Shown piece after piece: positions 11,037-22,318 of a stretch of DNA of 28,055 nucleotides (positions are counted from its first letter, which is position 1; each line of letters starts with the position of its first letter). The position numbers and the translations under genes were made by a program. Below the pieces are notes generated by a model, which saw only the letters and a program-made list of their open reading frames with translations, had not been told where the DNA came from and searched no databases. The DNA comes from a virus, in the IMG/VR virus record IMGVR_UViG_3300046168_000065, positions 1 to 28,055 of that record; one strand, written 5' to 3'.

Positions 11037-11285
11037 GTGAGCAAAAAACCAAAAATAAACAAAAGCAAGAAAAGTATTGAATTAACTGTTGGAGAGAGCA
11101 GTCCAACAAAATATGATGTCATGAAATTAATCGCTCAAAAATATTCAATTTATGGCTCTACTGTTTGGCTAAACACTCCACTTGTGGCGCACGAAAATAA
11201 AACGCCTGCCGAGCTTATGATTGAAGGCGAAATATCTATTGTTTACGATTTGATAGAAAAATCAAATGGAAAATTCGATTTATAA
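11037..11285 (+). CDS. Small protein with Xre/MbcA/ParS-like C-terminus
   Basis: This 82-residue protein starts at GTG 11037 and is one of two plus-strand genes inside the minus-strand late block. After a basic N-terminus, the C-terminal half (VWLNTPLVAHENKTPAELMIEGEISIVYDLIEK) has the N-x-x-L...P-x-E-L...G pattern of the toxin-binding domain of Xre/MbcA/ParS antitoxins (DUF2384-like). No classical helix-turn-helix is obvious. The next gene overlaps it by 20 bases. A toxin-antitoxin or anti-defence role is possible but untested. The assignment is by motif memory and is moderate. Confidence 0.6.
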   Translation: MSKKPKINKSKKSIELTVGESSPTKYDVMKLIAQKYSIYGSTVWLNTPLVAHENKTPAELMIEGEISIVYDLIEKSNGKFDL

Positions 11286-11496
11286 CTTTTGTTGGGAATT
11301 CTGTTACGAAATTGCAATTGCTGATCCTAAGGCTAACAATCAAAATTCTTTGATTATGAATTTGCCTGTTAAGTTCCTTCCGATACTAAAAACCCGCCTT
11401 AATTTGGCGGGCTTTAATTGTGTTTCGCTTAAACTGCACGGAAACGAATCCGTGATAGCGAGGTTTGCTAAAAACTCTAAGACTGCAAGTATTTAA
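11266..11496 (+). CDS. Hypothetical protein downstream of the ParS-like gene
   Basis: The reading frame gives 76 residues (MENSIYNFCWEFCYEIAIAD...) with balanced composition and a mixed hydrophobic and charged pattern like a real folded protein. It overlaps the previous gene by 20 bases, which suggests translational coupling, and its stop meets the stop of the minus-strand gene ending at 11493. A GC-rich hairpin at 11393-11411 lies within it, with a U-run on the minus strand, so the same DNA may serve as coding sequence here and as terminator for the opposing transcript. I recognise no family. If the first gene is an antitoxin, this could be its partner, but there is no motif to show it. Confidence 0.5.
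   Translation: MENSIYNFCWEFCYEIAIADPKANNQNSLIMNLPVKFLPILKTRLNLAGFNCVSLKLHGNESVIARFAKNSKTASI
11388..11411 (-). terminator. Terminator of the Hsp20 transcript
   Basis: CCCGCC and GGCGGG form a stem with a 7-base loop; on the minus strand five U follow. It lies about 80 bases past the stop at 11493 and inside the plus-strand 76-residue frame. Confidence 0.65.
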
Positions 11497-12120: not shown

Positions 12121-12354
12121 TATAATTTATGTCTGGAATAAAAATAGGCGCCGATTTTTTTCGGGCTAAGCAATATATAGAAATTATGAATTTAAATTTT
12201 GATTTTGAAAATTACCACCCCCCGCCCGATCTATAAGCCGAGCTAATAGGGCGAATTAGTAAAACTAATACCCCCTATTTGTAGGGTTCGAGATTCGCTT
12301 TTGCTATCTGTCTTTTTTTTGTTTGCCGTCGGTGTTTTTAAAATTTTAAAATAA
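12121..12354. other. Intergenic boundary between late and early regions, with a strong hairpin
   Basis: No reading frame on either strand looks real here. The region separates the minus-strand Hsp20 gene from the plus-strand gene starting at 12404. At 12245-12279 a two-part hairpin can form: AATAGGG pairs with CCCTATT around a 3/3 internal loop, then ATTAGT with ACTAAT around AAA. Neighbouring sequence is very AT-rich (12170-12215), followed by a C-rich run (12212-12224). No U-run makes it a clear terminator. A leader RNA, regulatory site or replication-linked site are all open. Confidence 0.5.
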
Positions 12355-12395
12355 TTCACTTTGTGCTTGCAATTCGACAAAAAATTTCTTAGAGT
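12355..12395 (+). promoter_or_regulatory. Early sigma-70 promoter with extended -35 region
   Basis: The element TTCACTTTGTGCTTGCAA contains the -35 TTGCAA (12367-12372). After 17 bases comes the -10 TAGAGT (12390-12395). The ATG is 8 bases further on, so the mRNA would have a leader of two bases or none. The same 18-base element recurs at 12610 and 13586. Confidence 0.75.
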
Positions 12396-12403
12396 ATACT
12401 TAT

Positions 12404-12604
12404 ATGACAAAAACAACAGAACAAATAAAAAGCGAAATCGCTCTCGAACAAAACCAACTTGCAATGTGGAATGGTCGCATGGATCAAAGCGAAATTGATT
12501 GGATTAACGCTCGAATCTCTGAGCTGAAAGCTATGCTTCCACAAGCTCGTTATAACGATAAAGTCCGTGCTTTTGGTTGGCGATCAGTCGAAAGAAATGC
12601 ATAA
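12404..12604 (+). CDS. Small hypothetical protein
   Basis: The protein has 66 residues, rich in Glu, Gln and Arg, with a helical middle (QLAMWNGRMDQSEIDWINARISELKAML). It has no membrane segment and no recognised family. The ATG lies 8 bases after the -10 hexamer and has no Shine-Dalgarno site, so the mRNA should be leaderless or nearly so. It is the first plus-strand gene of the accessory region; the next gene begins with a copy of the same promoter directly after its stop. Confidence 0.65.
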   Translation: MTKTTEQIKSEIALEQNQLAMWNGRMDQSEIDWINARISELKAMLPQARYNDKVRAFGWRSVERNA

Positions 12605-12609
12605 AATAA

Positions 12610-12650
12610 TTCACTTTGTGCTTGCAATTCACTAAAAAATTTTTTAAAGT
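12610..12650 (+). promoter_or_regulatory. Early leaderless promoter
   Basis: TTCACTTTGTGCTTGCAA carries the -35 TTGCAA at 12622-12627. A 17-base spacer and the -10 TAAAGT (12645-12650) follow. Exactly six bases separate the -10 from ATG 12657, placing the expected start of transcription on the A of the ATG. Confidence 0.78.
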
Positions 12651-12656
12651 AATAAT

Positions 12657-12902
12657 ATGTTAAACGATAAGACACAAATAACAATAGAACAAGTGCAAGA
12701 AAAATTGAATGCTGAGTTGGATCTCGGACTCTCTCTTTCTAAGGCTTTGGGTAGTCTTCGCCATCTTGCTCGCGAATCCAATAGTCCCGAATGGAAAGGC
12801 TCAATCACGCAAGGCGTAGCAATCTTGGACGCACTAAACGCCGTTCAGCTTGCCGTAAAATCTCGTCAAAAAATCATTGACATTGATCAGCAAAAAGGTT
12901 AG
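12657..12902 (+). CDS. Small hypothetical helical protein
   Basis: The 81-residue protein is helix-rich (IEQVQEKLNAELDLGLSLSK, LRHLARES, GVAILDALNAVQLAVKSRQK), without cysteines or membrane segments. It has its own promoter, with the -10 exactly six bases before the ATG and no Shine-Dalgarno site, so it is probably read from a leaderless mRNA. The next gene follows after 9 bases, so the two are likely one transcript. The function is unknown. Confidence 0.65.
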   Translation: MLNDKTQITIEQVQEKLNAELDLGLSLSKALGSLRHLARESNSPEWKGSITQGVAILDALNAVQLAVKSRQKIIDIDQQKG

Positions 12903-13241: not shown

Positions 13242-13321
13242 ATAAGCCCTTCTATATCAAGGGTTTATGGCAGGTCGCCCGCGCGGGTTGTGCTGTAAGT
13301 CGTTGAATAACAACGCTTTGC
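13242..13321. repeat. 80-bp three-hairpin repeat, copy 1
   Basis: The left palindrome is ATAAGCCCTT, 7 bases, AAGGGTTTAT (13242-13268). The GC-rich centre contains the self-complementary CCCGCGCGGG (13269-13295). The right palindrome is TAAGTCGTTG...CAACGCTTTG (13296-13321). Here the left arms use the CCCTT/AAGGG flavour. It lies between two plus-strand transcription units. Confidence 0.85.
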
Positions 13322-13350
13322 AACAAAATAAAAATAATTGTAAAAAAAGT

Positions 13351-13379
13351 TTGACAGAGTACCTTTTCTGTATTAGATT
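13351..13379 (+). promoter_or_regulatory. Sigma-70 promoter
   Basis: The perfect -35 TTGACA (13351-13356), a 17-base spacer and the -10 TAGATT (13374-13379) lie just downstream of repeat copy 1. The ATG of the next gene is 8 bases after the -10, giving an almost leaderless mRNA. Confidence 0.8.
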
Positions 13380-13387
13380 ATTCTTAT

Positions 13388-13579
13388 ATGATTAACACAA
13401 ATAGTAAAGTAAACGGCTTCATTGCCAAAGTAAATATCATTGATCGTAAGACAGGCGAGCTGATTAGCTCAAATGTAATGATGAAATGCGAACACCACGC
13501 AACAATTGAGGATCTAAATAAAGATCTTGCCAAGTTTGGACTGCCTCGAAAGTTTGAGCTTGTCGAATGGATAAGCTAA
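13388..13579 (+). CDS. Small hypothetical protein
   Basis: The 63-residue protein (MINTNSKVNGFIAKVNIIDR...FELVEWIS) looks like a small beta/alpha domain with no recognised family. It has a strong promoter and no Shine-Dalgarno site. The following promoter begins 6 bases after its stop, so this gene and the next can be transcribed separately. Confidence 0.65.
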   Translation: MINTNSKVNGFIAKVNIIDRKTGELISSNVMMKCEHHATIEDLNKDLAKFGLPRKFELVEWIS

Positions 13580-13585
13580 AAATAA

Positions 13586-13626
13586 TTCACTTTGTGCTTG
13601 CAATAATAATAAAAATAAACTAAATT
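13586..13626 (+). promoter_or_regulatory. Early leaderless promoter
   Basis: This is the third exact copy of TTCACTTTGTGCTTGCAA (-35 TTGCAA at 13598-13603). After 17 bases comes TAAATT (13621-13626), then six bases (CATCCT) to ATG 13633. Confidence 0.75.
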
Positions 13627-13632
13627 CATCCT

Positions 13633-13821
13633 ATGAAAGAAAAATTAAGAAATCAAATCAACCGACTCGAAGAATTACAAAACATCATTGACGCTCAGGC
13701 TGAAGCCGCAAATCTTGGTCATAGTCAAGCAATGTCGGCAATTATCGAAGCCCAAGAGGAACAGAACAAAATTACGCAAAGATTCAAGGCTTTAGCTCTT
13801 TGGGTCGCACTCGCTAACTAA
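13633..13821 (+). CDS. Small coiled-coil protein
   Basis: The 62-residue protein is almost wholly helical and Gln/Glu/Ala-rich (LRNQINRLEELQNIIDAQAE, then MSAIIEAQEEQNKITQRF), so it is a likely dimeric coiled coil. It is expressed from its own leaderless promoter. The next gene follows after 13 bases with a good Shine-Dalgarno site. No family is recognised. Confidence 0.65.
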   Translation: MKEKLRNQINRLEELQNIIDAQAEAANLGHSQAMSAIIEAQEEQNKITQRFKALALWVALAN

Positions 13822-13834
13822 GAAAGGAAAAATT

Positions 13835-14056
13835 ATGGAAGGATACAACGGATGGAAAAATTGGGCAACTTGGAATGTCGCCCTTTGGTTAGGCAATGAC
13901 GAATTCCTTTACAAGCTCTCTCGTAGATGTGTAAGCTTTAAGGATCTTGCAAATCATCTTGAAGATGCAGGAATGATTGCTACCCCTGACGGGGCAAGCT
14001 TTAAGGATGAAGACCTTGACACCTACGCTCTTGATGAATGGCTTATGGACGAATAA
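13835..14056 (+). CDS. Phage/plasmid small protein of the YNGWKNWATWNVALW type
   Basis: The 73-residue protein starts MEGYNGWKNWATWNVALWLG, a motif I know from a widespread family of small phage and plasmid proteins of unknown function (DUF7249-like; name from memory). A helical middle and an acidic C-terminus follow. It has a clear Shine-Dalgarno site (AAAGGA) and is translated from the transcript of the preceding gene, unlike the leaderless genes around it. Repeat copy 2 begins 3 bases after its stop. Confidence 0.75.
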   Translation: MEGYNGWKNWATWNVALWLGNDEFLYKLSRRCVSFKDLANHLEDAGMIATPDGASFKDEDLDTYALDEWLMDE

Positions 14057-14059
14057 TCC

Positions 14060-14139
14060 ATAAGTCGTTAAATATCAGCGACTTATAGCAGGGTCGCCGC
14101 AGCCATTTTGCTGTAAACCCTTGATTATAAACGACTTAT
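14060..14139. repeat. 80-bp three-hairpin repeat, copy 2
   Basis: The left palindrome is ATAAGTCGTT...AGCGACTTAT (14060-14086). The centre starts AGCA and ends TTTTGCTG (14087-14113). The right part starts TAAACCCTTG (14114-14139) but ends AACGACTTAT, so its arms are of mixed flavour and pair poorly. It lies between convergent genes. Confidence 0.85.
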
Positions 14140-14188
14140 GTCAAAAGTCGTACTGGGCATGATAACCATAATCAATGTCCTCGCACTC

Positions 14189-14332
14189 CTAAAAGTCTAA
14201 GAGAGCGACCTTGTCTTCAAGGCGACCAATCTCGTTGCGGATCGCAATGCGATCTCCAGGCGTGAGGTCAGCAGAGCTTTTTAAAGCTTTGTGAAGATTG
14301 GCGATTTCGTTAAGCATTTCTGTTTTAGTCAT
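14189..14332 (-). CDS. 47-residue hypothetical helical protein
   Basis: ATG 14332 opens a 47-residue frame (MTKTEMLNEIANLHKALKSS...EIGRLEDKVALLDF), a helical, amphipathic protein. A full promoter (TTGCAA, 17 bases, TAGTTT, six bases, ATG) precedes it and overlaps the end of the upstream gene, which supports it as real. It has no Shine-Dalgarno site, so a leaderless mRNA is expected. The function is unknown. Confidence 0.65.
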   Translation of the reverse strand: MTKTEMLNEIANLHKALKSSADLTPGDRIAIRNEIGRLEDKVALLDF

Positions 14333-14338
14333 AATAGT

Positions 14339-14367
14339 AAACTAGCAAAGCAAGAAACTAATTGCAA
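14339..14367 (-). promoter_or_regulatory. Early leaderless promoter inside the end of the upstream gene
   Basis: The -35 TTGCAA (14362-14367) overlaps the last codons of the 121-residue gene. After 17 bases comes -10 TAGTTT (14339-14344), then six bases to ATG 14332. Confidence 0.75.
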
Positions 14368-14723
14368 ACTTTTTCGTGAATAATTATATCTTTATGCAAA
14401 CCCCTAGAGTGCAAGTCTTTTACTACTTTAACTATGGCTTTCATTTTCTTTTCTCGGCTTAAGCCAGGAAAGCCTGCGACATACTCGCCGCCATCTCCTG
14501 TGAAAACCATTTCAAACTGATATCTTCTCCAGCCAGATGAGGTATATTGGCCAAGCTCGCCCGCAAGCATTCTTAACTGAGGGATAACTAATGATCCAAT
14601 CTCGATAAATTCTTTCTTTTTTGGCTCCTGTGGCTTTTGCTCTTGTAATGATAATTTTAATTCTAGAAATTTAATTCTTGCCTTTAGTGCTTCGTTTTCT
14701 GCTTGTAGTAGTGTGTCATTCAT
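14358..14723 (-). CDS. Hypothetical protein with N-terminal coiled coil
   Basis: The protein has 121 residues. Residues 1-35 form a coiled coil (LLQAENEALKARIKFLELKL), followed by a Lys/Pro/Glu linker and a compact C-terminal domain (GWRRYQFEMVFTGDGGEYVAGF...HSRGLHKDIIIHEKV). The coiled coil suggests an oligomer; no family is recognised. It has its own leaderless promoter, facing away from the duplicated plus-strand gene across repeat copy 3. Confidence 0.65.
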   Translation of the reverse strand: MNDTLLQAENEALKARIKFLELKLSLQEQKPQEPKKKEFIEIGSLVIPQLRMLAGELGQYTSSGWRRYQFEMVFTGDGGEYVAGFPGLSREKKMKAIVKVVKDLHSRGLHKDIIIHEKVCN

Positions 14724-14729
14724 AAGAGT

Positions 14730-14758
14730 AAACTAACCCAATCTAAAATAAAACACAA
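14730..14758 (-). promoter_or_regulatory. Early leaderless promoter
   Basis: The -35 is TTGTGT (14753-14758), followed by a 17-base spacer and -10 TAGTTT (14730-14735). Six bases then lead to ATG 14723. Confidence 0.7.
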
Positions 14759-14787
14759 GCTTTTTTTAATGTTTTTTTCTTTTTGTT

Positions 14788-14867
14788 GCAACTCATTGAG
14801 TATCAAGGGTTTACGGCACAAGGCCCGCACAGGTTTTGCTGTAAGTCGTTGGTAGTAAAGAGTTTAC
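14788..14867. repeat. 80-bp three-hairpin repeat, copy 3
   Basis: The left arm pair is degenerate (GCAACTCATT...AAGGGTTTAC), the centre begins GGCACAAGG and ends TTTTGCTG, and the right arm starts TAAGTCGTTG. The 54-bp spacing between the two palindrome starts is kept. It lies between divergent promoters. Confidence 0.85.
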
Positions 14868-14880
14868 AACAAAAATACAT

Positions 14881-14899
14881 AGAGACGCCATTTGTCTCT
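14881..14899. other. Small hairpin upstream of the duplicated gene
   Basis: AGAGAC and GTCTCT form a 6-bp inverted repeat around GCCATTT. It ends 7 bases before the extended -10 (14907-14915), where a regulator could bind. The copy at 17715-17733 is identical. Confidence 0.4.
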
Positions 14900-14906
14900 G
14901 GGTGTG

Positions 14907-14915
14907 TGTTATACT
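14907..14915 (+). promoter_or_regulatory. Extended -10 leaderless promoter
   Basis: The sequence TGTTATACT is an extended -10 (TGN before TATACT, 14910-14915). No good -35 is seen 17 bases upstream. Six bases follow to ATG 14922. Confidence 0.65.
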
Positions 14916-14921
14916 GTAGGT

Positions 14922-15248
14922 ATGATTACAATAGAACACATTGATGACCAAACTTTCAACGCCACCGTAGAGTGGGATATGTACCTAATCGAGGTCGAGG
15001 GTACAGTATGGACTGAGCAGGAAGATAATCTGTGGGGTGACCAGGTCGAGTCAGTTTCGACCATTGCCCATTTTGATGCAGTGACCGATATGAAGGTGTC
15101 AAGCAAAATGACTGGCGATGAAGTTGAGGTGCTGAACCTGGACTTTGCCGAGCTAGTGGTTCGCCAGCTCAAGGAGGCTATCTGTGAGGAGGTCTACTCA
15201 GAAGAATGTCAAGTAGATTATTCACCACACTATCACGATCTCGTGTAA
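14922..15248 (+). CDS. Duplicated 108-residue acidic protein, copy A
   Basis: I start the gene at ATG 14922 (MITIEHIDDQTFNATVEWDM...), six bases after TATACT, rather than at the upstream TTG, which would lie before the promoter. The 108-residue protein is very acidic, with a beta-rich N-terminal part and a helix (FAELVVRQLKEAICEEV), and ends DYSPHYHDLV. No family is recognised. Its base composition is visibly more GC-rich than its neighbours, suggesting recent arrival. Its stop codon lies inside the left arm of repeat copy 4. An identical gene is at 17756. It is the cargo of the duplicated cassette. Confidence 0.8.
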   Translation: MITIEHIDDQTFNATVEWDMYLIEVEGTVWTEQEDNLWGDQVESVSTIAHFDAVTDMKVSSKMTGDEVEVLNLDFAELVVRQLKEAICEEVYSEECQVDYSPHYHDLV

Positions 15249-15324
15249 GTGTTTGAATATCAAGGGTTTACGACACAAGGCCCGCACAGGTTTTGCTGTA
15301 AGTCGTTGAATATCAGCAACTTAT
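15245..15324. repeat. 80-bp three-hairpin repeat, copy 4
   Basis: The left part (GTAAGTGTTT...AAGGGTTTAC) contains the stop codon of the preceding gene. The centre starts GACACAAGG, and the right palindrome is TAAGTCGTTG...GCAACTTAT (from 15299). It lies between convergent genes, ahead of a terminator. Confidence 0.85.
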
Positions 15325-15352
15325 GGAAACTTTAGGCTTTTAGGCTAGACGG

Positions 15353-15376
15353 CAAAAACCCGTCCGAGGAGCGGGT
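15353..15376 (-). terminator. Intrinsic terminator of the 15478-16435 genes
   Basis: On the minus strand, ACCCG and CGGGT arms (extended by TCC/GGA) are followed by a run of five U. It lies about 100 bases beyond the stop at 15478. Confidence 0.65.
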
Positions 15377-15477
15377 ATTTGGCAAATTTGTATTTGCTAT
15401 TTAGGGATTTCCTATTTCTTTTTTATCCTTTCCATATCATGTAAAATACAAAAACCCAAGGCGAGAACATTATTAAT

Positions 15478-15744
15478 TCAAGAATCATGATAAACTCCTT
15501 TCATCTCATCAGATACTCCCATGTCTTGATCTTCTTCGTCGATTTCTTCGGCAGATTCATTATAATCAAATAATGAAATTTCATCTTCCAAATCAGATTC
15601 CTGAACATTAAGTAAACCATGCTCTCCAAAAATCTTTTCGGTTTTAACATCTGCGATGAAATCTTCAATGATTTCGTTAGGTTGGAAAGCTTTGGATGCT
15701 TCCACTGCGTTAGCGATAATTGCGATTCTTTGTTCTTCTGTCAT
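15478..15744 (-). CDS. Acidic hypothetical protein
   Basis: The 88-residue protein is strongly acidic, especially residues 45-80 (NVQESDLEDEISLFDYNESA, then EEIDEEDQDMG), with a helical N-terminus (EEQRIAIIANAVEASKAF). Acidic small phage proteins often mimic DNA, but no evidence beyond charge supports that here. It has its own leaderless promoter, whose -35 overlaps the stop of the upstream gene. Confidence 0.65.
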   Translation of the reverse strand: MTEEQRIAIIANAVEASKAFQPNEIIEDFIADVKTEKIFGEHGLLNVQESDLEDEISLFDYNESAEEIDEEDQDMGVSDEMKGVYHDS

Positions 15745-15750
15745 AATAGT

Positions 15751-15779
15751 AATTTAATATAGTTGGTTTAGTGTGTCAA
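15751..15779 (-). promoter_or_regulatory. Early leaderless promoter inside the end of the upstream gene
   Basis: The perfect -35 TTGACA (15774-15779) includes the TGA stop of the 79-residue gene. After 17 bases comes TAAATT (15751-15756), then six bases to ATG 15744. Confidence 0.8.
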
Positions 15780-16015
15780 GAAATTTCTTGCAAATCCTTG
15801 TTTAATGCCATTTCTGCGTCTACTTGTTCTTGTAACAAGTTGAGCTTTTGGAGTAGAGTTTTGTAGCCAGGATACCCACCATTTAGCCAACCTTCCCATT
15901 TTCCGTTGATCTTTTTAAATGTCACATCCCAAGCAGACTGATAGTCATAAGTCCTGAGTAAGCCGTTTGGTAAACGCTCGAAATGAAACTCTTGTTCTTT
16001 GTCTTTGATTGTCAT
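15776..16015 (-). CDS. Hypothetical protein
   Basis: The 79-residue protein has an N-terminal beta-rich part (EQEFHFERLPNGLLRTYDYQ, WDVTFKKINGKWEGWLNGG) and a C-terminal helix (LLQKLNLLQEQVDAEMALNK). It is not recognised. It is expressed from its own leaderless promoter, which lies in the end of the 131-residue gene upstream. Confidence 0.65.
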   Translation of the reverse strand: MTIKDKEQEFHFERLPNGLLRTYDYQSAWDVTFKKINGKWEGWLNGGYPGYKTLLQKLNLLQEQVDAEMALNKDLQEIS

Positions 16016-16021
16016 AATAGT

Positions 16022-16050
16022 AATGTAGTTTAGTTTGGTTTAATAGTCAA
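16022..16050 (-). promoter_or_regulatory. Early leaderless promoter inside the end of the upstream gene
   Basis: The -35 TTGACT (16045-16050) lies in the last codons of the 131-residue gene. After 17 bases comes TACATT (16022-16027), then six bases to ATG 16015. Confidence 0.72.
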
Positions 16051-16435
16051 GCCCTAAATCTCTTCTAAATTCTGCTTTGTCTTCGATTAGCTCGTCAACC
16101 CAAACACTTCCTTCGGCTTGAGCTTTTGCCATTAAGATAGATACTTGGGCAGGAGATTGCCAACCGACAACATCATCTGAAGGAGAAAGAGGAATCATTC
16201 CATTCTTGTCAAAAATTGCAACTTCGTACAAATCTTCTTCCACACTTCCATATAATCCTTTGTGGTCATCTAATCCTGCGACAACAGAAATTTCTAGTCC
16301 GTTGCCAAAGTTAAGTCTTGCTTGGACTGCGTCATCAGAACCACGATGTGGCTTAAAATCAAGATCATTAAAATCTAAAATAGAAGGTAATGGTTGATAT
16401 TGTGAGATGTAGTCTGGTAATATGTAGTTAATCAT
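16040..16435 (-). CDS. Hypothetical protein
   Basis: The 131-residue protein begins MINYILPDYISQYQPLPSIL and has a beta-rich centre (LEISVVAGLDDHKGLYGSVE, DLYEVAIFDKNGMIPLSPSD) and a C-terminal helix (QVSILMAKAQAEG). The mix suggests a soluble globular protein. No family is recognised. Its leaderless promoter has the extended upstream element seen at six other genes. Repeat copy 5 lies just upstream of that promoter. Confidence 0.7.
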   Translation of the reverse strand: MINYILPDYISQYQPLPSILDFNDLDFKPHRGSDDAVQARLNFGNGLEISVVAGLDDHKGLYGSVEEDLYEVAIFDKNGMIPLSPSDDVVGWQSPAQVSILMAKAQAEGSVWVDELIEDKAEFRRDLGLDY

Positions 16436-16441
16436 ATAAAC

Positions 16442-16482
16442 ACACTAAAACTTTTTGTCAATTAATGCAAGAAAAAAGTGAA
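16442..16482 (-). promoter_or_regulatory. Early leaderless promoter with extended -35 region
   Basis: On the minus strand TTCACTTTTTTCTTGCAT (16465-16482) carries the -35 TTGCAT. A 17-base spacer and TAGTGT (16442-16447) follow, then six bases to ATG 16435. A TTGACA inside the spacer is badly placed for the start and is probably chance. Confidence 0.75.
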
Positions 16483-16499
16483 GTTTTTTTCATTTTGTT

Positions 16500-16579
16500 C
16501 TAAGTCGTTGAATATCATGCACTTATGGCACAGCGGCCCCGCGCGAGCTGCTGTAAGTCGTTGACCTACAGCAACTTAG
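16500..16579. repeat. 80-bp three-hairpin repeat, copy 5
   Basis: The left palindrome is CTAAGTCGTT...ATGCACTTAT. The centre, starting GGCACAGCGG and ending GAGCTGCTG, pairs CAGC with GCTG. The right palindrome is TAAGTCGTTG...GCAACTTAG. It lies between two minus-strand units. Confidence 0.85.
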
Positions 16580-16598
16580 GAAAATTTATCCTATATCA

Positions 16599-17327
16599 TT
16601 AATGTGCAAGGTATGCAATACCTTTTTTGCATCCCTTGATGAAACATAAGTTGCAATTATGAGCTTGGCAAGTTGCAAGAATCTTTCCATCCTCACCCTT
16701 AACATAAGTTGCGGGGCAAACAAAATGTCCGTCTTGCTCGGCTTTTACTTTGCTAGTGTAAACTGAAGTGCCCGCGTCGAGTCCGTCAACTTGTGGAGCT
16801 GGCTCATCTACATAAATGGCACTTGGCTTAATGTTTACATTTTTAAGGCTTGCCAACTTTTGTAAGTGTGGAAGCTGAGAGTCGCGTTTCCATTCACGAG
16901 TTGGAAACCAAAAGCGAATTGTTGGGAATTGTTCGCAAATGCGAATCCACGCGGCAATGTAGCGAGGGGAAAACAAATCGCCTGAATCATGAACGCGAAA
17001 CAAATCGGTGTTTGTCTTTTTGAGTTGCTTTTTGTTTCCGTGCTTGTCAAAATACTTTGCTCGAATTTGCTTGCACATTGCATCAACAAAAGTGTCGCCA
17101 TTGTCTTGATGTAGTGACTTTGTTATGAGATCCGCCTTGCCTTGCAAACTTGCCTTGACATTGGAAAACATATAAAAGCCCTTGCAAGCATAGCAAGAAT
17201 CACAAATGAACTTTTTTGCTTTGTCTTTAATCTTTGCCAATAATTGAGCTGCGGGGCAATACTTAAAAGCTGGAATGTTGAACGAATAGCAAGGCATCTT
17301 GCTTGGATTGGATAGTAAGTTAATCAT
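16599..17327 (-). CDS. Phage GP88-like cysteine-rich protein
   Basis: The 242-residue protein resembles the phage Gene 88 protein family (GP88): an N-terminal SKMPCYSFNIPAFKYCPAA, then CDSCYACKGFYMFSNVKA (C42, C45, C48) and a conserved middle (DLFRVHDSGDLFSPRYIAAW, FWFPTREWKRDSQLP). The C-terminus has a second Cys cluster (CQAHNCNLCFIKGCKKG), which suggests bound metal or an Fe-S cluster. No activity is known to me for this family. The length looks complete. It is transcribed from its own leaderless promoter. Confidence 0.75.
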   Translation of the reverse strand: MINLLSNPSKMPCYSFNIPAFKYCPAAQLLAKIKDKAKKFICDSCYACKGFYMFSNVKASLQGKADLITKSLHQDNGDTFVDAMCKQIRAKYFDKHGNKKQLKKTNTDLFRVHDSGDLFSPRYIAAWIRICEQFPTIRFWFPTREWKRDSQLPHLQKLASLKNVNIKPSAIYVDEPAPQVDGLDAGTSVYTSKVKAEQDGHFVCPATYVKGEDGKILATCQAHNCNLCFIKGCKKGIAYLAH

Positions 17328-17333
17328 ATAAAA

Positions 17334-17362
17334 AATATAGTCTAATTGTTTTGCAATTGCAA
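17334..17362 (-). promoter_or_regulatory. Early leaderless promoter
   Basis: The -35 TTGCAA (17357-17362), a 17-base spacer and -10 TATATT (17334-17339) are followed by six bases to ATG 17327. A second TTGCAA sits directly inside the spacer. Confidence 0.78.
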
Positions 17363-17365
17363 GCT

Positions 17366-17557
17366 TTAAAGCACTAAATCTTCAAAAAAGTTAGGCTCTA
17401 GACCGAACTCACCTGAGAAGGAATCTTCCCAATCAAAAAGGCTTCCGCCTTGTTCAACATCCATCCACATTTCAGAAGTAAATGCAGTAACTTGATCCTC
17501 CGCCTCTTCACGGGAAAGTCCGTCGCGGGTCATTAAGGTTTCAATTATTCGTTTCAT
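17366..17557 (-). CDS. Small phage protein with DGLSREEAE motif
   Basis: The 63-residue protein starts MKRIIETLMTRDGLSREEAE and continues acidic (DVEQGGSLFDWEDSFSGEFG). The motif 'rDGLSREEAe' occurs in many small phage proteins of unknown function (from memory). It has a leaderless promoter facing away from the second copy of the duplicated gene across repeat copy 6. Confidence 0.7.
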   Translation of the reverse strand: MKRIIETLMTRDGLSREEAEDQVTAFTSEMWMDVEQGGSLFDWEDSFSGEFGLEPNFFEDLVL

Positions 17558-17563
17558 AAGTAT

Positions 17564-17604
17564 ACTATCGCAGAAAAGACTACTAGACGCAAGAAAAAAG
17601 TGAA
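17564..17604 (-). promoter_or_regulatory. Early leaderless promoter with extended -35 region
   Basis: On the minus strand TTCACTTTTTTCTTGCGT (17587-17604) is followed by 17 bases, then GATAGT (17564-17569) and six bases to ATG 17557. Confidence 0.72.
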
Positions 17605-17621
17605 TTAAATTGCATTTTGTT

Positions 17622-17701
17622 GCAACTCATTGAGTATCAAGGGTTTACGGCACAAGGCCCGCACAGGTTTTGCTGTAAGTCGTTGGTAGTAAAGAGTTTA
17701 C
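17622..17701. repeat. 80-bp three-hairpin repeat, copy 6
   Basis: This copy is identical to copy 3 and forms the left end of cassette copy B. It lies between divergent promoters. Confidence 0.85.
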
Positions 17702-17740
17702 AACAAAAATACATAGAGACGCCATTTGTCTCTGGGTGTG

Positions 17741-17749
17741 TGTTATACT
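17741..17749 (+). promoter_or_regulatory. Extended -10 leaderless promoter, copy B
   Basis: TGTTATACT is identical to the promoter of copy A; six bases separate it from ATG 17756. Confidence 0.65.
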
Positions 17750-17755
17750 GTAGGT

Positions 17756-18082
17756 ATGATTACAATAGAACACATTGATGACCAAACTTTCAACGCCACC
17801 GTAGAGTGGGATATGTACCTAATCGAGGTCGAGGGTACAGTATGGACTGAGCAGGAAGATAATCTGTGGGGTGACCAGGTCGAGTCAGTTTCGACCATTG
17901 CCCATTTTGATGCAGTGACCGATATGAAGGTGTCAAGCAAAATGACTGGCGATGAAGTTGAGGTGCTGAACCTGGACTTTGCCGAGCTAGTGGTTCGCCA
18001 GCTCAAGGAGGCTATCTGTGAGGAGGTCTACTCAGAAGAATGTCAAGTAGATTATTCACCACACTATCACGATCTCGTGTAA
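17756..18082 (+). CDS. Duplicated 108-residue acidic protein, copy B
   Basis: The DNA and protein are identical to the gene at 14922-15248, including promoter, start and the stop inside the downstream repeat. Exact identity over a coding region with no visible drift means a very recent duplication, gene conversion, or an assembly artefact. Two copies would double the dose of this unknown acidic protein. The five minus-strand genes between the copies would be lost if the copies recombined. Confidence 0.8.
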   Translation: MITIEHIDDQTFNATVEWDMYLIEVEGTVWTEQEDNLWGDQVESVSTIAHFDAVTDMKVSSKMTGDEVEVLNLDFAELVVRQLKEAICEEVYSEECQVDYSPHYHDLV

Positions 18083-18158
18083 GTGTTTGAATATAAAGGG
18101 TTTACGACACAAGGCCCGCACGGGTTTTGCTGTAAGTCGTTGAATATCAGCAACTTAT
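18079..18158. repeat. 80-bp three-hairpin repeat, copy 7
   Basis: This copy matches copy 4 apart from two bases and forms the right end of cassette copy B. It is followed by a terminator module that also follows copy 8. Confidence 0.85.
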
Positions 18159-18174
18159 GTAATTTTCGAGGTTA

Positions 18175-18201
18175 ATAAAAACCCCCCTCGAATGAGGGGG
18201 G
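18175..18201 (-). terminator. Intrinsic terminator of the DUF932-like gene
   Basis: On the minus strand CCCCCCTC, loop ATTC and GAGGGGGG are followed by TTTTTA. It lies 26 bases beyond the stop at 18227. A nearly identical terminator stands at 19643-19669. Confidence 0.85.
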
Positions 18202-18226
18202 CTTTAACGATACGACAAACCACTAT

Positions 18227-19090
18227 TTAAACTGATACCAATTCGTTTTCGACAACCTCAACATCCAAAACATTTGGAACATGGTTGTCAATATCAAAAT
18301 CGACAACGCTATCGAGAACAGAATGAAGAGCGTCTGAACGATTTGGCAATGCTACAAGATTACCTTTATAAATTTCTGTGAATGCGTTATAAAGTGAATT
18401 TACATTGCGGTCACGAAATTCAAGATGATCACTAGATGCCCATTGATCCGCAACATCAAGAATTTTGGATTTAGGTAAAGCACCTGCACGAACCGCTTTT
18501 ATGATAAGGTCATGAGCATAGACATTGCCAATTGAGCGGTTTTTGTAAGCCTCGATTCTTTGATCTTGACCATGCCAAAAGTTAAAGAGCTTTCCAATTG
18601 CTCGATTGATGGTCGTATCAAGATCGTTTAAGATGTTGCGAGTGTGCCTACGAGCAAGTTTAATTGTATTGGTGAAGATTAAATTGTCACAAACAAAAGG
18701 GGCATCACCTGCACAAAGTCCTGCGGGAAATGTTTTGTCGTGAGAGTTGCGGATTCCTACAACGCAACCACGATCTGACGCTTCGCGGTTAGGATGATCA
18801 ACGGCAAACAAACCAAAATAATGTTGGTTGCCCCTAGCGAGAGAATGCACTTCGTCTTGAATAGTGAACCCATTTTGATTAAGAAAGCCCTTTGTGCGAT
18901 CAACCACTTCGTGATGGGCGATAGGCTGATAAGAAACGGCTCGCTCGCCATTAGCATTTTCTTTTTTGCGGTACTCTTTAGGTGGAGTAGGAACTGCGAC
19001 AACTTGTTCGAAATCGACAAGCGAACGATTGCCTCCGCAAATGTGAAGGTTAACTTTAGGTGATGTGGATTGTGTGTTTTCGTTATTCAT
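18227..19090 (-). CDS. DUF932-like phage/plasmid protein
   Basis: The 287-residue protein matches the DUF932 (phage/plasmid-like) pattern: QHYFGLFAVDHPN, then GIRNSHDKTFPAGLCAGD, APFVCDNLIF and KLARRHTRNI. These motifs cluster at about residues 85-155. The C-terminal part holds helical regions and an acidic end. The function of the family is unknown; it is common on phages and conjugative elements. The promoter (TTGACA, 16 bases, TATTAT) ends 7 bases before the ATG. A terminator follows the gene, so it is probably monocistronic. Confidence 0.75.
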   Translation of the reverse strand: MNNENTQSTSPKVNLHICGGNRSLVDFEQVVAVPTPPKEYRKKENANGERAVSYQPIAHHEVVDRTKGFLNQNGFTIQDEVHSLARGNQHYFGLFAVDHPNREASDRGCVVGIRNSHDKTFPAGLCAGDAPFVCDNLIFTNTIKLARRHTRNILNDLDTTINRAIGKLFNFWHGQDQRIEAYKNRSIGNVYAHDLIIKAVRAGALPKSKILDVADQWASSDHLEFRDRNVNSLYNAFTEIYKGNLVALPNRSDALHSVLDSVVDFDIDNHVPNVLDVEVVENELVSV

Positions 19091-19097
19091 AGCTTTG

Positions 19098-19125
19098 ATA
19101 ATATAGTTATATAGGTTTTTGTCAA
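19098..19125 (-). promoter_or_regulatory. Sigma-70 promoter
   Basis: TTGACA (19120-19125), 16 bases and TATTAT (19098-19103) precede ATG 19090 by 7 bases. With a 17-base spacer the hexamer would be ATTATC and the distance six bases. Confidence 0.65.
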
Positions 19126-19128
19126 TAA

Positions 19129-19368
19129 TTAATTTAAAGAATTAGGGTTTTTTTCATAACCTTTTTCTTGAAGTTGATAATACGCCTCGGCTTTTTCGGC
19201 AATATCTTTAAACATTATGCCAATTAAAGTGATGGATGCAAGATCATCTTGGTCAAGGTTTTCTTCTTGTGGTTTGATAAATGTGTTAAATAAATAACTC
19301 ATTGCATCCTCAACTACCATTTGGACATCTGGTCTTTCTTCTGATTGAAATTCAGGGTTAATATTCAT
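19129..19368 (-). CDS. Small hypothetical acidic protein
   Basis: The 79-residue protein (MNINPEFQSEERPDVQMVVE...AYYQLQEKGYEKNPNSLN) is helical and acidic, with no membrane segment or known family. It has a strong Shine-Dalgarno site (AAGGAGG), and its ATG overlaps the stop of a 38-residue upstream frame. It would be translated from that frame's transcript, with coupling. Confidence 0.7.
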   Translation of the reverse strand: MNINPEFQSEERPDVQMVVEDAMSYLFNTFIKPQEENLDQDDLASITLIGIMFKDIAEKAEAYYQLQEKGYEKNPNSLN

Positions 19369-19481
19369 ACTAATTCCTCCTTATGTTTTTGTTTTCTGTG
19401 GATAATTTTATTCTTCATTTTGTGTGGGCGGGATTTAGTGAAGAGAACCGCTTTTCTGATCTTTATCTCTCTCGCTTTCAT
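19365..19481 (-). CDS. 38-residue basic leader peptide or miniprotein
   Basis: ATG 19481 lies exactly six bases after a -10 hexamer, like the other leaderless genes here. The frame reads MKAREIKIRKAVLFTKSRPH, then KMKNKIIHRKQKHKEELV, and its TGA overlaps the ATG of the 79-residue gene (ATGA). The peptide is strongly basic (Lys/Arg/His-rich), fit for nucleic acid binding. Its end encodes the next gene's Shine-Dalgarno site, so translating it may control the downstream gene. It is too short for most gene callers. Confidence 0.6.
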   Translation of the reverse strand: MKAREIKIRKAVLFTKSRPHKMKNKIIHRKQKHKEELV

Positions 19482-19487
19482 ATGTAC

Positions 19488-19528
19488 ATACTAAGCTACT
19501 TTTATAATTAACACAAGAAAAAAATGAA
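19488..19528 (-). promoter_or_regulatory. Early leaderless promoter with extended -35 region
   Basis: On the minus strand TTCATTTTTTTCTTGTGT (19511-19528), 17 bases, TAGTAT (19488-19493), then six bases to ATG 19481. Confidence 0.75.
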
Positions 19529-19545
19529 TTAATTTTCACTTTGCC

Positions 19546-19625
19546 GTAAGTCGTTGAACTTCAATGGTTTATGGCACAACGGCCCCGCGCGATTTGCCGT
19601 AAGTCGTTGAAAGTAAGTGACTTAT
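19546..19625. repeat. 80-bp three-hairpin repeat, copy 8
   Basis: The left palindrome is GTAAGTCGTT...AATGGTTTAT. The centre starts GGCACAACGG and ends ATTTGCCG, so GGCA now pairs with TGCC, a compensatory change. The right palindrome is TAAGTCGTTG...TGACTTAT. It lies between minus-strand units. Confidence 0.85.
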
Positions 19626-19642
19626 GTAATTTTCTAGGTCAA

Positions 19643-19669
19643 TAAAAAACCCCCCTCGAATGAGGGGGG
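19643..19669 (-). terminator. Intrinsic terminator of the 19695-21797 operon
   Basis: The hairpin CCCCCCTC/GAGGGGGG with a minus-strand run of six U lies 26 bases beyond the stop at 19695. The stretch from the end of repeat copy 8 to here resembles the one after copy 7. Confidence 0.85.
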
Positions 19670-19694
19670 CTATAGCGACAACCAAAATTATTGA

Positions 19695-19907
19695 TTAAAT
19701 TTTCTTTTCGATTCGGTTGAGTCGATATAAGGCACGATCATGCTTGCGTTTAGTATCGAAATAGTCTTTCGAGTTCTCTCCGTAAATTTCACGCACAGCT
19801 AATTGATAACCTAATTCACGAACCTCAGCAGCGAGCCACATTGAAAGCTTGGCGTCATTCATTTGTCTGTCTGTGAGTCTGTTTACTAATTGGGATGATG
19901 CCGTCAT
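19695..19907 (-). CDS. Small basic hypothetical protein
   Basis: The 70-residue protein (MTASSQLVNRLTDRQMNDAK...KRKHDRALYRLNRIEKKI) is helical and basic at its C-terminus. It begins 2 bases after the previous stop with AAGG upstream, so it is the last gene of a nine-gene minus-strand operon. No family is recognised. Confidence 0.65.
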   Translation of the reverse strand: MTASSQLVNRLTDRQMNDAKLSMWLAAEVRELGYQLAVREIYGENSKDYFDTKRKHDRALYRLNRIEKKI

Positions 19908-19909
19908 AA

Positions 19910-20143
19910 TTAAGCCTTTACTATTGAAATGATTCTGTCATAACGAAATGAACGAACTGCGTCGCGATTATAACAATGAGCCCGAAAGCCAGCGACAGAG
20001 AGACCTTCTTTCAGATTTCCGAATTCATTTCTGTGCTTTGGTTTAGAGATGGTATACATTGCAGTAGTACCTTCTTGAGTTTTGTATACCACTTGGTAGA
20101 CGGGGTTAAATAAGCGAGCGATTTTAGCTAGCAATTTCTTCAT
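19910..20143 (-). CDS. Small protein with a WYL-like C-terminal motif
   Basis: The 77-residue protein has YQVVYKTQEGTTAMYTISKP followed by GFRAHCYNRDAVRSFRYDRI and ISIVKA. The second stretch resembles the end of WYL domains (an aromatic/basic strand, 'R-x-F-R-x-D-R-I'), which bind ligands or nucleic acid in bacterial regulators. Only a fragment-sized domain is present. It has a Shine-Dalgarno site (GGAGGA) inside the preceding gene, which it overlaps by 20 bases. Confidence 0.6.
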   Translation of the reverse strand: MKKLLAKIARLFNPVYQVVYKTQEGTTAMYTISKPKHRNEFGNLKEGLSVAGFRAHCYNRDAVRSFRYDRIISIVKA

Positions 20144-20363
20144 GTTGTACTTCCTCCTTTAGGGGATTTATGTTGTAGTGATTGTAAGCATCAGTGACTT
20201 GTTCAGCTGATTCGAAACTTACAGAAATAATGTCTCTCTCAAAATATGGATTCCATTGTTCGTGGTTCTCTTCGAAGAATAATTCCCATTGTTCAGTATC
20301 CTCGTTAAAGCTTGGTAAATCCAATGGTCTGCCTGTGCAGGTTGCCTCTATGTAATTGTTCAT
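20124..20363 (-). CDS. Acidic hypothetical protein
   Basis: The 79-residue protein is acidic (PSFNEDTEQWELFFEENHEQ) with a possible small folded core (FERDIISVSFESAEQVTDAY). Start and stop overlap neighbours (TAATG with the previous stop, 20 bases with the next gene). No family is recognised. Confidence 0.65.
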   Translation of the reverse strand: MNNYIEATCTGRPLDLPSFNEDTEQWELFFEENHEQWNPYFERDIISVSFESAEQVTDAYNHYNINPLKEEVQHEEIAS

Positions 20364-20578
20364 TATAGTGCCCTTTCGTCTACTTGTTCTAACATTAATT
20401 TGAATTGATCGAAAACTTTTTGCTTACTACCTTTAAGCCCAAACTCTTGTTTGACGATAGAATAACAAGATCTGCCTCGACTCATTTGTAGCCCTTGGGT
20501 CTCAAGCTTTAAACCTCTAAGAAGAGTTTTGTAGCGAAACATTTCGATTTGTTCGGGTGTGTCTAATACTGTTGTCAT
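20363..20578 (-). CDS. Small basic hypothetical protein
   Basis: The 71-residue protein (MTTVLDTPEQIEMFRYKTLL...GSKQKVFDQFKLMLEQVDERAL) is helical. The segment RGRSCYSIVKQEFGLKGSKQ recalls a conserved phage motif around 'RG-x-S-x-x-x-x-x-K-x-x-x-G', but I cannot name the family. It has a Shine-Dalgarno site (AAGGA) and a 14-base gap from the previous gene. Confidence 0.65.
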   Translation of the reverse strand: MTTVLDTPEQIEMFRYKTLLRGLKLETQGLQMSRGRSCYSIVKQEFGLKGSKQKVFDQFKLMLEQVDERAL

Positions 20579-20592
20579 GATTTTTCCTTGTG

Positions 20593-20820
20593 TTATAGTT
20601 GTGCTGATTGAAAAGATGATTCTATCCTAAGCTCATTTTGCAAGCTTGTCAAGTCTGTAATGATATCATCTAAAACTTCTTCTGCACTTTCAGTGGTGAT
20701 GTAATCAACCCCTAAACTCTCAGCCTTCTTTAGGTTAATTGGATCTGTAGGATTGCACCAACGAAGATTGCCATGAGTGATTTGCATTATCATTTGCCTA
20801 ATCTCTCCCTGCGTCATCAT
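20593..20820 (-). CDS. Hypothetical acidic protein
   Basis: The 75-residue protein (MMTQGEIRQMIMQITHGNLRW...) has an acidic helical C-terminus (EEVLDDIITDLTSLQNELRI). Its start overlaps the preceding stop (ATGATGA), so translation is coupled. Two adjacent ATG codons (20820 and 20817) can both serve. The function is unknown. Confidence 0.65.
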   Translation of the reverse strand: MMTQGEIRQMIMQITHGNLRWCNPTDPINLKKAESLGVDYITTESAEEVLDDIITDLTSLQNELRIESSFQSAQL

Positions 20821-20999
20821 TGTTTTGCCCTTTCTGCTTTAATCTTTGCGTTTTGGTCGTCAACGATTTTAGCTAAACGCTTTAATTCAAATATAACATT
20901 TTGCTTGTCTTCGTATCCTGCTTTTGGGTTCTTCAGTACCTCAATCATTGGAAGAATGAGTGCTGACCATGTTGGTGTTATATCTATTGTTTCTGTCAT
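20817..20999 (-). CDS. Small hypothetical protein
   Basis: The 60-residue protein (MTETIDITPTWSALILPMIE...KRLAKIVDDQNAKIKAERAKQ) has a hydrophobic first half and a helical basic end. It looks like one of a family of short phage proteins beginning with 'W-x-x-x-L-P-x-L' helices, but the match is weak. It has its own leaderless promoter within the operon, so this and the downstream genes can be expressed apart from the first three. Confidence 0.65.
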   Translation of the reverse strand: MTETIDITPTWSALILPMIEVLKNPKAGYEDKQNVIFELKRLAKIVDDQNAKIKAERAKQ

Positions 21000-21005
21000 A
21001 ATATA

Positions 21006-21034
21006 AAACTAAACTATCTGAGTGCTGTTGTCAA
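21006..21034 (-). promoter_or_regulatory. Early leaderless promoter inside the end of the upstream gene
   Basis: The perfect -35 TTGACA (21029-21034) lies within codons of the 67-residue gene. After 17 bases comes TAGTTT (21006-21011), then six bases to ATG 20999. Confidence 0.8.
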
Positions 21035-21217
21035 CTCATTTTCAAACTTTTTTGCTTCAACTAATTCTTTAAGGTCATAGCTGATAGTGCATAAACTTTC
21101 GTTAATGCCATTCATTACCTTGATGAGATCTGCCATGTTTCCATAACGACGATTTTCTAATAGTTCGTCGGCGACTCCATCAATTGCACATTCTATTCTT
21201 TTTAATTGTTCTTTCAT
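21014..21217 (-). CDS. Small helical hypothetical protein
   Basis: I take ATG 21217 (MKEQLKRIECAIDGVADELL), because GGAGGA lies 8 bases upstream and the ATG overlaps the stop of the previous gene (ATGA). A longer in-frame form from 21283 would run through that gene. The 67-residue product is helical (IKVMNGINESLCTISYDLKE). The function is unknown. Confidence 0.7.
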   Translation of the reverse strand: MKEQLKRIECAIDGVADELLENRRYGNMADLIKVMNGINESLCTISYDLKELVEAKKFENELTTALR

Positions 21218-21387
21218 AACATATCCTCCTCGTCTAATACTTTTTGTTGTAATTCTTTTAATGATTCGTAGGTGTTGTACCACGAATCTGTCGGATCTAC
21301 TTCGCCCTCCATTTCGCTATACTGAATGTAATCCATAACTTCTTGGATAGATTGTGATACGGGAATTTTAATCAATAATTGTTTCAT
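21214..21387 (-). CDS. 57-residue hypothetical protein
   Basis: The frame from ATG 21387 gives 57 residues (MKQLLIKIPVSQSIQEVMDY...SWYNTYESLKELQQKVLDEE). Both ends overlap neighbours by four bases (ATGA), which makes it almost certainly a real coupled gene. It is short and acidic at the end. No family is recognised. Confidence 0.7.
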   Translation of the reverse strand: MKQLLIKIPVSQSIQEVMDYIQYSEMEGEVDPTDSWYNTYESLKELQQKVLDEEDML

Positions 21388-21797
21388 GACATATATGCTG
21401 TTACTTTGTTGTGCGTTAATAAAACTTCGTCCGCATAGTATACAAAACTTTCATCCTTCTTGTCAACAAAAGTCTCATACTTGTATGGGTTATATGTTAC
21501 CTCGACTTCTTTCGTGATAACGGCAGGGTTACGAGATACATTCTCAGCATCCTGAAGATAGCCCTTGACAAAAGCATGGACATTCTTACGCTTCTCGCGA
21601 AGCACTTTCTCTCTACCCTTGACATCGACATGAAAATAGCAATCCCATAATCCAATAGCATGATCCTTTGGGATGTGTGCCTTGACTAATCCATGTTGCT
21701 TGATGCTCCAACAATCCTTGTGAAGATTCTTGTAAACATATACGGGACGATTCTTTTTAATCGTGTATCTTGGGTCGTGTTGGTTTCTCAGTATCAT
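21384..21797 (-). CDS. Hypothetical protein, first gene of the operon
   Basis: The 137-residue basic protein (MILRNQHDPRYTIKKNRPVY...) has segments such as VKAHIPKDHAIGLWDCYFHV and KGREKVLREKRKNVHAFVKG, plus a C-terminal beta-rich part. It resembles conserved phage proteins of unknown function with 'H-Lys-Cys-W...' blocks, but I cannot name the family. It is the promoter-proximal gene of the nine-gene operon and has a leaderless promoter with the extended element. Confidence 0.7.
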   Translation of the reverse strand: MILRNQHDPRYTIKKNRPVYVYKNLHKDCWSIKQHGLVKAHIPKDHAIGLWDCYFHVDVKGREKVLREKRKNVHAFVKGYLQDAENVSRNPAVITKEVEVTYNPYKYETFVDKKDESFVYYADEVLLTHNKVTAYMS

Positions 21798-21803
21798 ATA
21801 AGT

Positions 21804-21844
21804 ACATTAGTCTAGTTTTTTAAAAACCGCAAGAAAAAAATGCA
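21804..21844 (-). promoter_or_regulatory. Early leaderless promoter with extended -35 region
   Basis: On the minus strand TGCATTTTTTTCTTGCGG (21827-21844), 17 bases, TAATGT (21804-21809), then six bases to ATG 21797. Confidence 0.75.
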
Positions 21845-21861
21845 ATTAAATGAAGATTGTT

Positions 21862-21941
21862 ATAAACCGTTGATAATCAAGTGCTTATGACAAAACGGTG
21901 GCGGCGCTTGTTTCATAAGTTGTTAATAATCAACGATTTAA
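21862..21941. repeat. 80-bp three-hairpin repeat, copy 9
   Basis: The left palindrome is ATAAACCGTT...AAGTGCTTAT. The divergent centre starts GACAAAACGG and ends TTGTTTCA. The right palindrome is TAAGTTGTTA...CAACGATTTA. Although the sequence has drifted, the 54-bp spacing is unchanged. It lies between divergent promoters. Confidence 0.8.
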
Positions 21942-21966
21942 AAAATTAAAAAAAAAGATAAAAAGT

Positions 21967-21995
21967 TTGACATGAGGCCAGTAATCGATTAATGT
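21967..21995 (+). promoter_or_regulatory. Sigma-70 promoter with a leader
   Basis: TTGACA (21967-21972), 17 bases, TAATGT (21990-21995). Unlike most promoters here, about 33 bases of leader with a Shine-Dalgarno site precede ATG 22035. Confidence 0.75.
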
Positions 21996-22034
21996 ATATG
22001 TATATTAACAATAACCCTAACGAAAGGAAATATT

Positions 22035-22163
22035 ATGAAAAATACTGAAAACCAAAAACTTATTGACGGAGAGAAATTAACTTGGTCTTACGCTCAAAGA
22101 AAGTACTATCGCGAAGCTCCAACTGCACTCAGGAATTTGATAGCTAAACATTTCGACAGCTAA
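22035..22163 (+). CDS. 42-residue hypothetical protein
   Basis: ATG 22035 opens a 42-residue frame (MKNTENQKLIDGEKLTWSYA...APTALRNLIAKHFDS) with a good Shine-Dalgarno site (AAGGAA, 6 to 7 bases upstream), a consensus promoter before it and a strong terminator 20 bases after its stop. This complete unit makes it very likely to be a real gene. The protein is basic and helical; the function is unknown. Confidence 0.7.
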   Translation: MKNTENQKLIDGEKLTWSYAQRKYYREAPTALRNLIAKHFDS

Positions 22164-22183
22164 GCTTCTAGAGCAATAGCATC

Positions 22184-22215
22184 AAGCCCCAAAGGTGCAA
22201 GCCTTGGGGCTTTTT
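22184..22215 (+). terminator. Intrinsic terminator
   Basis: AAGCCCCAAAGG and CCTTGGGGCTT form a stem with one bulged A, followed by five U on the plus strand. It ends the 22035 unit. Confidence 0.85.
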
Positions 22216-22238
22216 GCTTTATAAAATACCTTTAACTC

Positions 22239-22318
22239 TTAACTTGTTCATAACCAAGCACTTACAAAATTTTCCCTGCAGCAATTTTGCCATAAGTCGT
22301 TGATATACAATAACTTAC
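22239..22318. repeat. 80-bp three-hairpin repeat, copy 10
   Basis: This is the most diverged copy: left TTAACTTGTT...AAGCACTTAC, centre with CTGCAG and ATTTTGCCA, right TAAGTCGTTG...TAACTTACG. The spacing of 54 bp is kept. It follows the terminator of the 42-residue gene. Confidence 0.75.

Follow-up and report, generated by a model that had tools for sequence, protein, structure and literature searches.

A repeated double-dyad element marks module boundaries in a hypervariable region of large uncultured phages

Introduction

T4-type phages carry PeSLs, composites of a promoter and a stem-loop that are linked to module shuffling (Arbiol 2010, PMC2839356; Comeau 2014, PMC4122927; both via PMC4503421). 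The haloarchaeal virus HGTV-1 has a promoter-like box with an inverted repeat before many ORFs, and this motif was proposed to serve regulation and shuffling (PMC3950731). Cluster A mycobacteriophages have stoperators, many intergenic copies of a protein site (PMC6550527, PMC9283540), and some phages hold integron attC sites as CALINs (PMC9892861).

Here we describe an element that shares features with each of these. Like PeSLs, as far as the cited accounts describe them, it combines a promoter with an inverted repeat and recurs between the small gene modules of a plastic region, in phages with a UvsX-like recombinase. The HGTV-1 motif is alike by description, and its box is archaeal and TATA-like, unlike here. 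Stoperators are single asymmetric sites spread genome-wide, whereas we found double dyads in one cluster whose orientation does not follow transcription. Little is known about how large phages trade the small uncharacterised genes of their variable regions; a defined DNA element that marks module edges at one genomic place across a whole phage group bears on this question.

Results

Ten copies of a double dyad lie between genes in the window

The window, i.e. the whole stretch of 28,055 nucleotides analysed here (IMG/VR record IMGVR_UViG_3300046168_000065), is itself a 28-kb viral record. We found 10 copies of a 78-bp core element in it (Table 1), all at the places given in the earlier note. 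Each copy consists of two 25-bp dyads separated by a 28-bp GC-rich spacer. All four dyad arms can be read as variants of a single 11-bp half-site (consensus TAAGTCGTTGA); dyad positions 2, 3, 9, 17, 23 and 24 are nearly invariant and positions 4–7 are variable. A position weight matrix built from the ten copies scores them at 67–111 and the next best place at 3.5, a separation that arises by construction. With nhmmer, the copies have E-values of 1e-13 to 1e-22; searched with this model, independent contigs yield further copies. The reversed-sequence control gave 0 double units within the window.

In 10 of 10 copies, the distance from one dyad start to the other is exactly 53 bp. The constant distance noticed earlier is thus real, but its value is 53 rather than 54 bp, since the figure depends on the chosen unit start. 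All ten copies lie at module boundaries between genes, with some overlapping the last codon, and their settings include convergent (14061, 15246 and 18080), divergent (14789 and 17623) and tandem (16501) genes. This placement between transcription units, which had also been claimed before, is kept in related phages.

Table 1. Elements, promoters, terminator-like hairpins and cassette units in the window. Promoters are given as −35 box, spacer length and −10 box.
Feature	Position	Strand	Remarks
Element 1	13243..13320	+	two 25-bp dyads, 53 bp apart
Element 2	14061..14138	-	polarity opposite to others; within segment inverted relative to L088
Element 3	14789..14866	+	outward promoters on both sides
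Element 4	15246..15323	+	its first TAA ends gene 14922-15248
Element 5	16501..16578	+	
Element 6	17623..17700	+	identical to element 3
Element 7	18080..18157	+	its first TAA ends gene 17756-18082
Element 8	19547..19624	+	
Element 9	21863..21940	+	
Element 10	22240..22317	+	polarity weakly defined
Outward promoter TTGACA-17-TAGATT	13351..13390	+	ATG 67 nt from element 1 edge
Outward promoter TTGTGT-17-TAGTTT	14721..14758	-	6 nt, then ATG; −35 starts 30 bp from element 3 edge
Outward promoter TTGCAT-17-TAGTGT	16433..16470	-	6 nt, then ATG; element 5
Outward promoter TTGCGT-17-GATAGT	17555..17592	-	6 nt, then ATG; element 6
Outward promoter TTGTGT-17-TAGTAT	19479..19516	-	6 nt, then ATG of short ORF; element 8; 30/65 geometry by eye
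Outward promoter TTGCGG-17-TAATGT	21795..21832	-	6 nt, then ATG; element 9
Terminator-like hairpin	18177..18203	.	beside element 7, separate from it
Terminator-like hairpin	19645..19671	.	beside element 8, separate from it
457-bp cassette unit	17623..18157	+	absent from L088; L088 element 12860 aligns to both ends
Second copy of 457-bp unit	14789..15323	+	99% over 300 bp aligned

Large uncultured phages carry one array each

The element belongs to a hypervariable region of early-gene type that is present in a group of large uncultured phages. With the model of the ten window copies, arrays were found in related IMG/VR contigs, and a strict double-arm pattern matched at least 119 viral stretches. 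The contigs are partly redundant, and elements were collected by score thresholds. Reversed-sequence controls were near zero. In 257 Gb of prokaryote genomes, the pattern matched 28 stretches, only one of them a true array (L126); the other 27 were other repeats or single chance pairs. The L126 array has 43-bp spacing with one 50-bp element and lies on a 4.7-kb contig binned as Flavobacteriaceae. No relative of the window terminase turned up in that assembly, and L126 is probably a phage contig.

Twelve large related phage records (61–229 kb) have one array each, with 7–24 elements, and no elements were found outside the array at the thresholds used. In one (G014), the elements form two groups on the contig, at 24–27 kb and 140–143 kb. 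Eleven of the twelve were chosen for carrying the pattern or an array; the other (G009), selected by terminase similarity alone, still has an array of eight. The twelve records have about 40 protein families in common, including PhoH, DnaB, a PolIII-like polymerase, primase and a UvsX-like protein, and the array is near PhoH in all of them (median distance 3.4 kb). Comparing terminases, we found no isolated phage close to the group, and BLASTN and megablast against isolated phages gave no relevant match. Beside a sigma-like gene, the window also encodes a 350-aa core protein (7454-8512) that by eye has two helix-turn-helix-like repeats and possibly binds DNA; nothing links it to the element.

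An outward promoter often lies at a fixed distance from the element

We found that sigma-70-like promoters pointing away from the element often place their −35 box exactly 30–31 bp from its edge. With promoters called as consensus matches, 73 element sides from 23 arrays, i.e. a subset of elements, have a −35 box 28–32 bp from the edge, and inward promoters show no such peak. Since the ATG follows 6 nt past the −10 box, the nearest start codon is 65–66 nt from the edge far more commonly than at any other distance, and genes with this arrangement may be leaderless. The geometry recurs in arrays with unlike flanks, such as the 229-kb record of L192, and may come in part from common descent. Promoter distances also have weak bins near 20 and 40, from which we claim no helical phasing. 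On the opposite side, it is common for genes to terminate within the element, at a TAA in its first bases (62 sides) or a TGA at bases 9–11 (31 sides). Gene direction is independent of how the element is oriented.

The window also holds promoters of this sort that have no element beside them (family D6). A 66-nt promoter-like repeat precedes genes, again with no element, at 12339-12404, 12594-12659 and 13570-13635. In the related record L088, an additional small gene (11234-11419) lies between the promoter and the homologue of window gene 16040-16435, which itself starts right at the promoter.

The dyad arms vary without compensatory change

The earlier note proposed that selection acts on the exact spacing and on the fold, with compensatory changes in the central stem. 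Between phages, dyad spacing ranges from 40 to 65 bp (most often 50, 42, 53 and 58). It is constant within an array, though some arrays hold two classes. When arrays of equal spacing are compared, the middle segments of one array usually resemble each other more than those of another array; the exception is the 58-bp group, which lacks higher within-array identity. The spacing pattern looks like inheritance plus homogenisation and not like a fixed geometric demand.

Among the 53-bp elements (19 copies), 83.6% of cells pair under a three-hairpin model vs 84.1% in shuffles, and 82.4% vs 82.7% under a model of one long hairpin. When we permuted 232 oriented elements within 31 arrays, none of the pairings (local arms, long-range arms and spacer) had a total above expectation. 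Unoriented elements gave negative covariation z-scores; orienting them, to remove a suspected effect of mixed orientations, did not lift the values above expectation. Hence, the half-sites vary without compensation, which is what one expects of sites for DNA binding and not of a fold. Measured against the refuting outcomes that the note had named, covariation was not significant, and related phages did not share the 53/54-bp spacing, although they retained the boundary placement. Selection on fold and on exact spacing is thus not supported.

We asked what these results leave of the view that the element works as RNA, through terminator, processing or stability hairpins. Inverted repeats do lie at transcript ends, and among eight copies folded as single strands some were more stable than shuffles, but two (15246 and 16501) were not. 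The lack of compensatory change speaks against RNA, as does the lack of any Rfam match, and a terminator-like match was present at the edge of only 1 of 10 copies (19547), with separate hairpins adjoining several. An RNA role is therefore highly improbable, and the processing site suggested earlier is weak.

An asymmetric mismatch at L19/R7 (GG or CC) is present in 175 of 297 elements and marks polarity in some lineages. By this mark, most window elements are co-directed and 14061 is reversed; the block of gene 13835-14056 with element 14061 aligns inverted to L088. Arrays in general are mostly co-oriented.

Modules are gained and lost from element to element

Alignment ends between related arrays cluster at elements. 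Of 61 array indels, we found 12 that begin at one element and finish at another while the other phage has just one element at that place, although some of the 12 represent one event shared by two records. The 457-bp unit 17623-18080 of the window, with its near-identical copy at 14789-15246, is among these cases. From the 11% chance per end, about 0.7 of 61 would be expected. The earlier note had proposed this comparison of related phages for gene gain or loss bounded by the element. In hybrid elements, parentage switches at varying positions from the left dyad to the right dyad, as read from seven aligned triplets, some of them ambiguous after divergence.

These indels weigh against a solely regulatory role, in which a phage protein would bind the element as operator or insulator and the breaks would only reflect intergenic space, since the indels end on two elements far above chance. 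Such an operator would fit the −35 box at 30–31 bp in several lineages with unlike flanks as well as the independence of the half-sites; it fits less well with elements between convergent genes and with gene direction that is independent of element orientation. We consider regulation alone unlikely.

Gain and loss exactly from element to element would also be produced by an attC-like recombination site that folds as a single strand and is served by a recombinase from the host or of an unrecognised kind. In topology, a variable spacer flanked by two inverted pairs is like attC, the L19/R7 mismatch would give polarity, and as in CALINs (PMC9892861) mostly co-oriented arrays bound the cassettes, genes often end at the site and the record lacks an integrase. 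However, the attC boxes RYYYAAC and GTTRRRY are present in 1 of 297 elements, pairing of the conserved single-strand hairpin type is no better than in shuffles, crossover points differ, and genes here are served by promoters of their own and lie in both directions. Tyrosine recombinases (PF00589) were found in 0 of 53 viral records (11, then 42), with two cellular assemblies in the second search matching as expected. Serine recombinases/resolvases (PF00239) and the Y1 (RAYT) transposase that is the hallmark of REP/BIME (PF01797) were each found in 0 of 18; these viral records may be incomplete fragments, and the transposase may be host-borne. The strict pattern gave no chromosomal arrays, and the two CALIN phages checked (L331 and L332) have no arrays of this element. 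An attC-like site is thus distinctly unlikely. Slightly more doubtful again is an integron-like phage cassette system in which the double dyad would be the site of a new kind of recombinase, probably phage-encoded, and cassettes would move during infection.

Discussion

We favour, at a probability of roughly 0.55, a PeSL-like boundary module as the explanation: the double dyad would act in the manner of an operator and would also provide homology for module shuffling. A putative protein, probably phage-encoded, would bind the dyads as DNA and regulate or insulate the adjoining modules. The element copies would offer homology for phage recombination, possibly through the UvsX-like protein of the group, and homologous exchange would then delete, insert, invert and homogenise modules. 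Counting for this reading are the independence of the half-sites, the single array per genome and its proximity to PhoH, the −35 peak and the internal stops, together with element-to-element indels, variable crossovers, within-array identity of the middle segments and the UvsX-like recombinase in the core. Counting against it are elements between convergent genes, which have no promoter to serve there, window promoters of like kind that lack an element, and the identity pattern of the 58-bp group.

The earlier note had suggested a counterpart of PeSLs, and the fixed promoter geometry and element-to-element gain and loss agree with this; the terminator role of the stem-loop does not carry over. 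In the PeSL accounts cited above, the stem-loop is a terminator, whereas here there are two dyads resembling protein sites and a terminator-like match at one copy in ten. The constant promoter-to-repeat geometry of PeSLs is seen here in the subset of 73 sides and 23 arrays, and the promoters are presumably early. Unlike the PeSLs so described, the element also lies between convergent genes without a promoter and has phage-specific dyad spacing, and by terminase its carriers are not closely related to any isolate. The best-supported view appears to be a new anatomy that works in a PeSL-like manner with different parts.

The exact promoter geometry and the recorded gains and losses make module exchange directly testable, and the element is a simple handle for finding cassette genes in metagenomes. 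In the window, the near-identical 457-bp units (14781-15325 and 17615-18159) each encode a protein of 108–118 aa, and the 108-aa protein has no relative in viral contigs. Cassette genes 16599-17327 and 21384-21797 match the GP88 and L5 gp82-like families, and gene 18227-19090 has a weak DUF932 match below the cut-off. Members of several gene families are also present within the arrays of the other phages.
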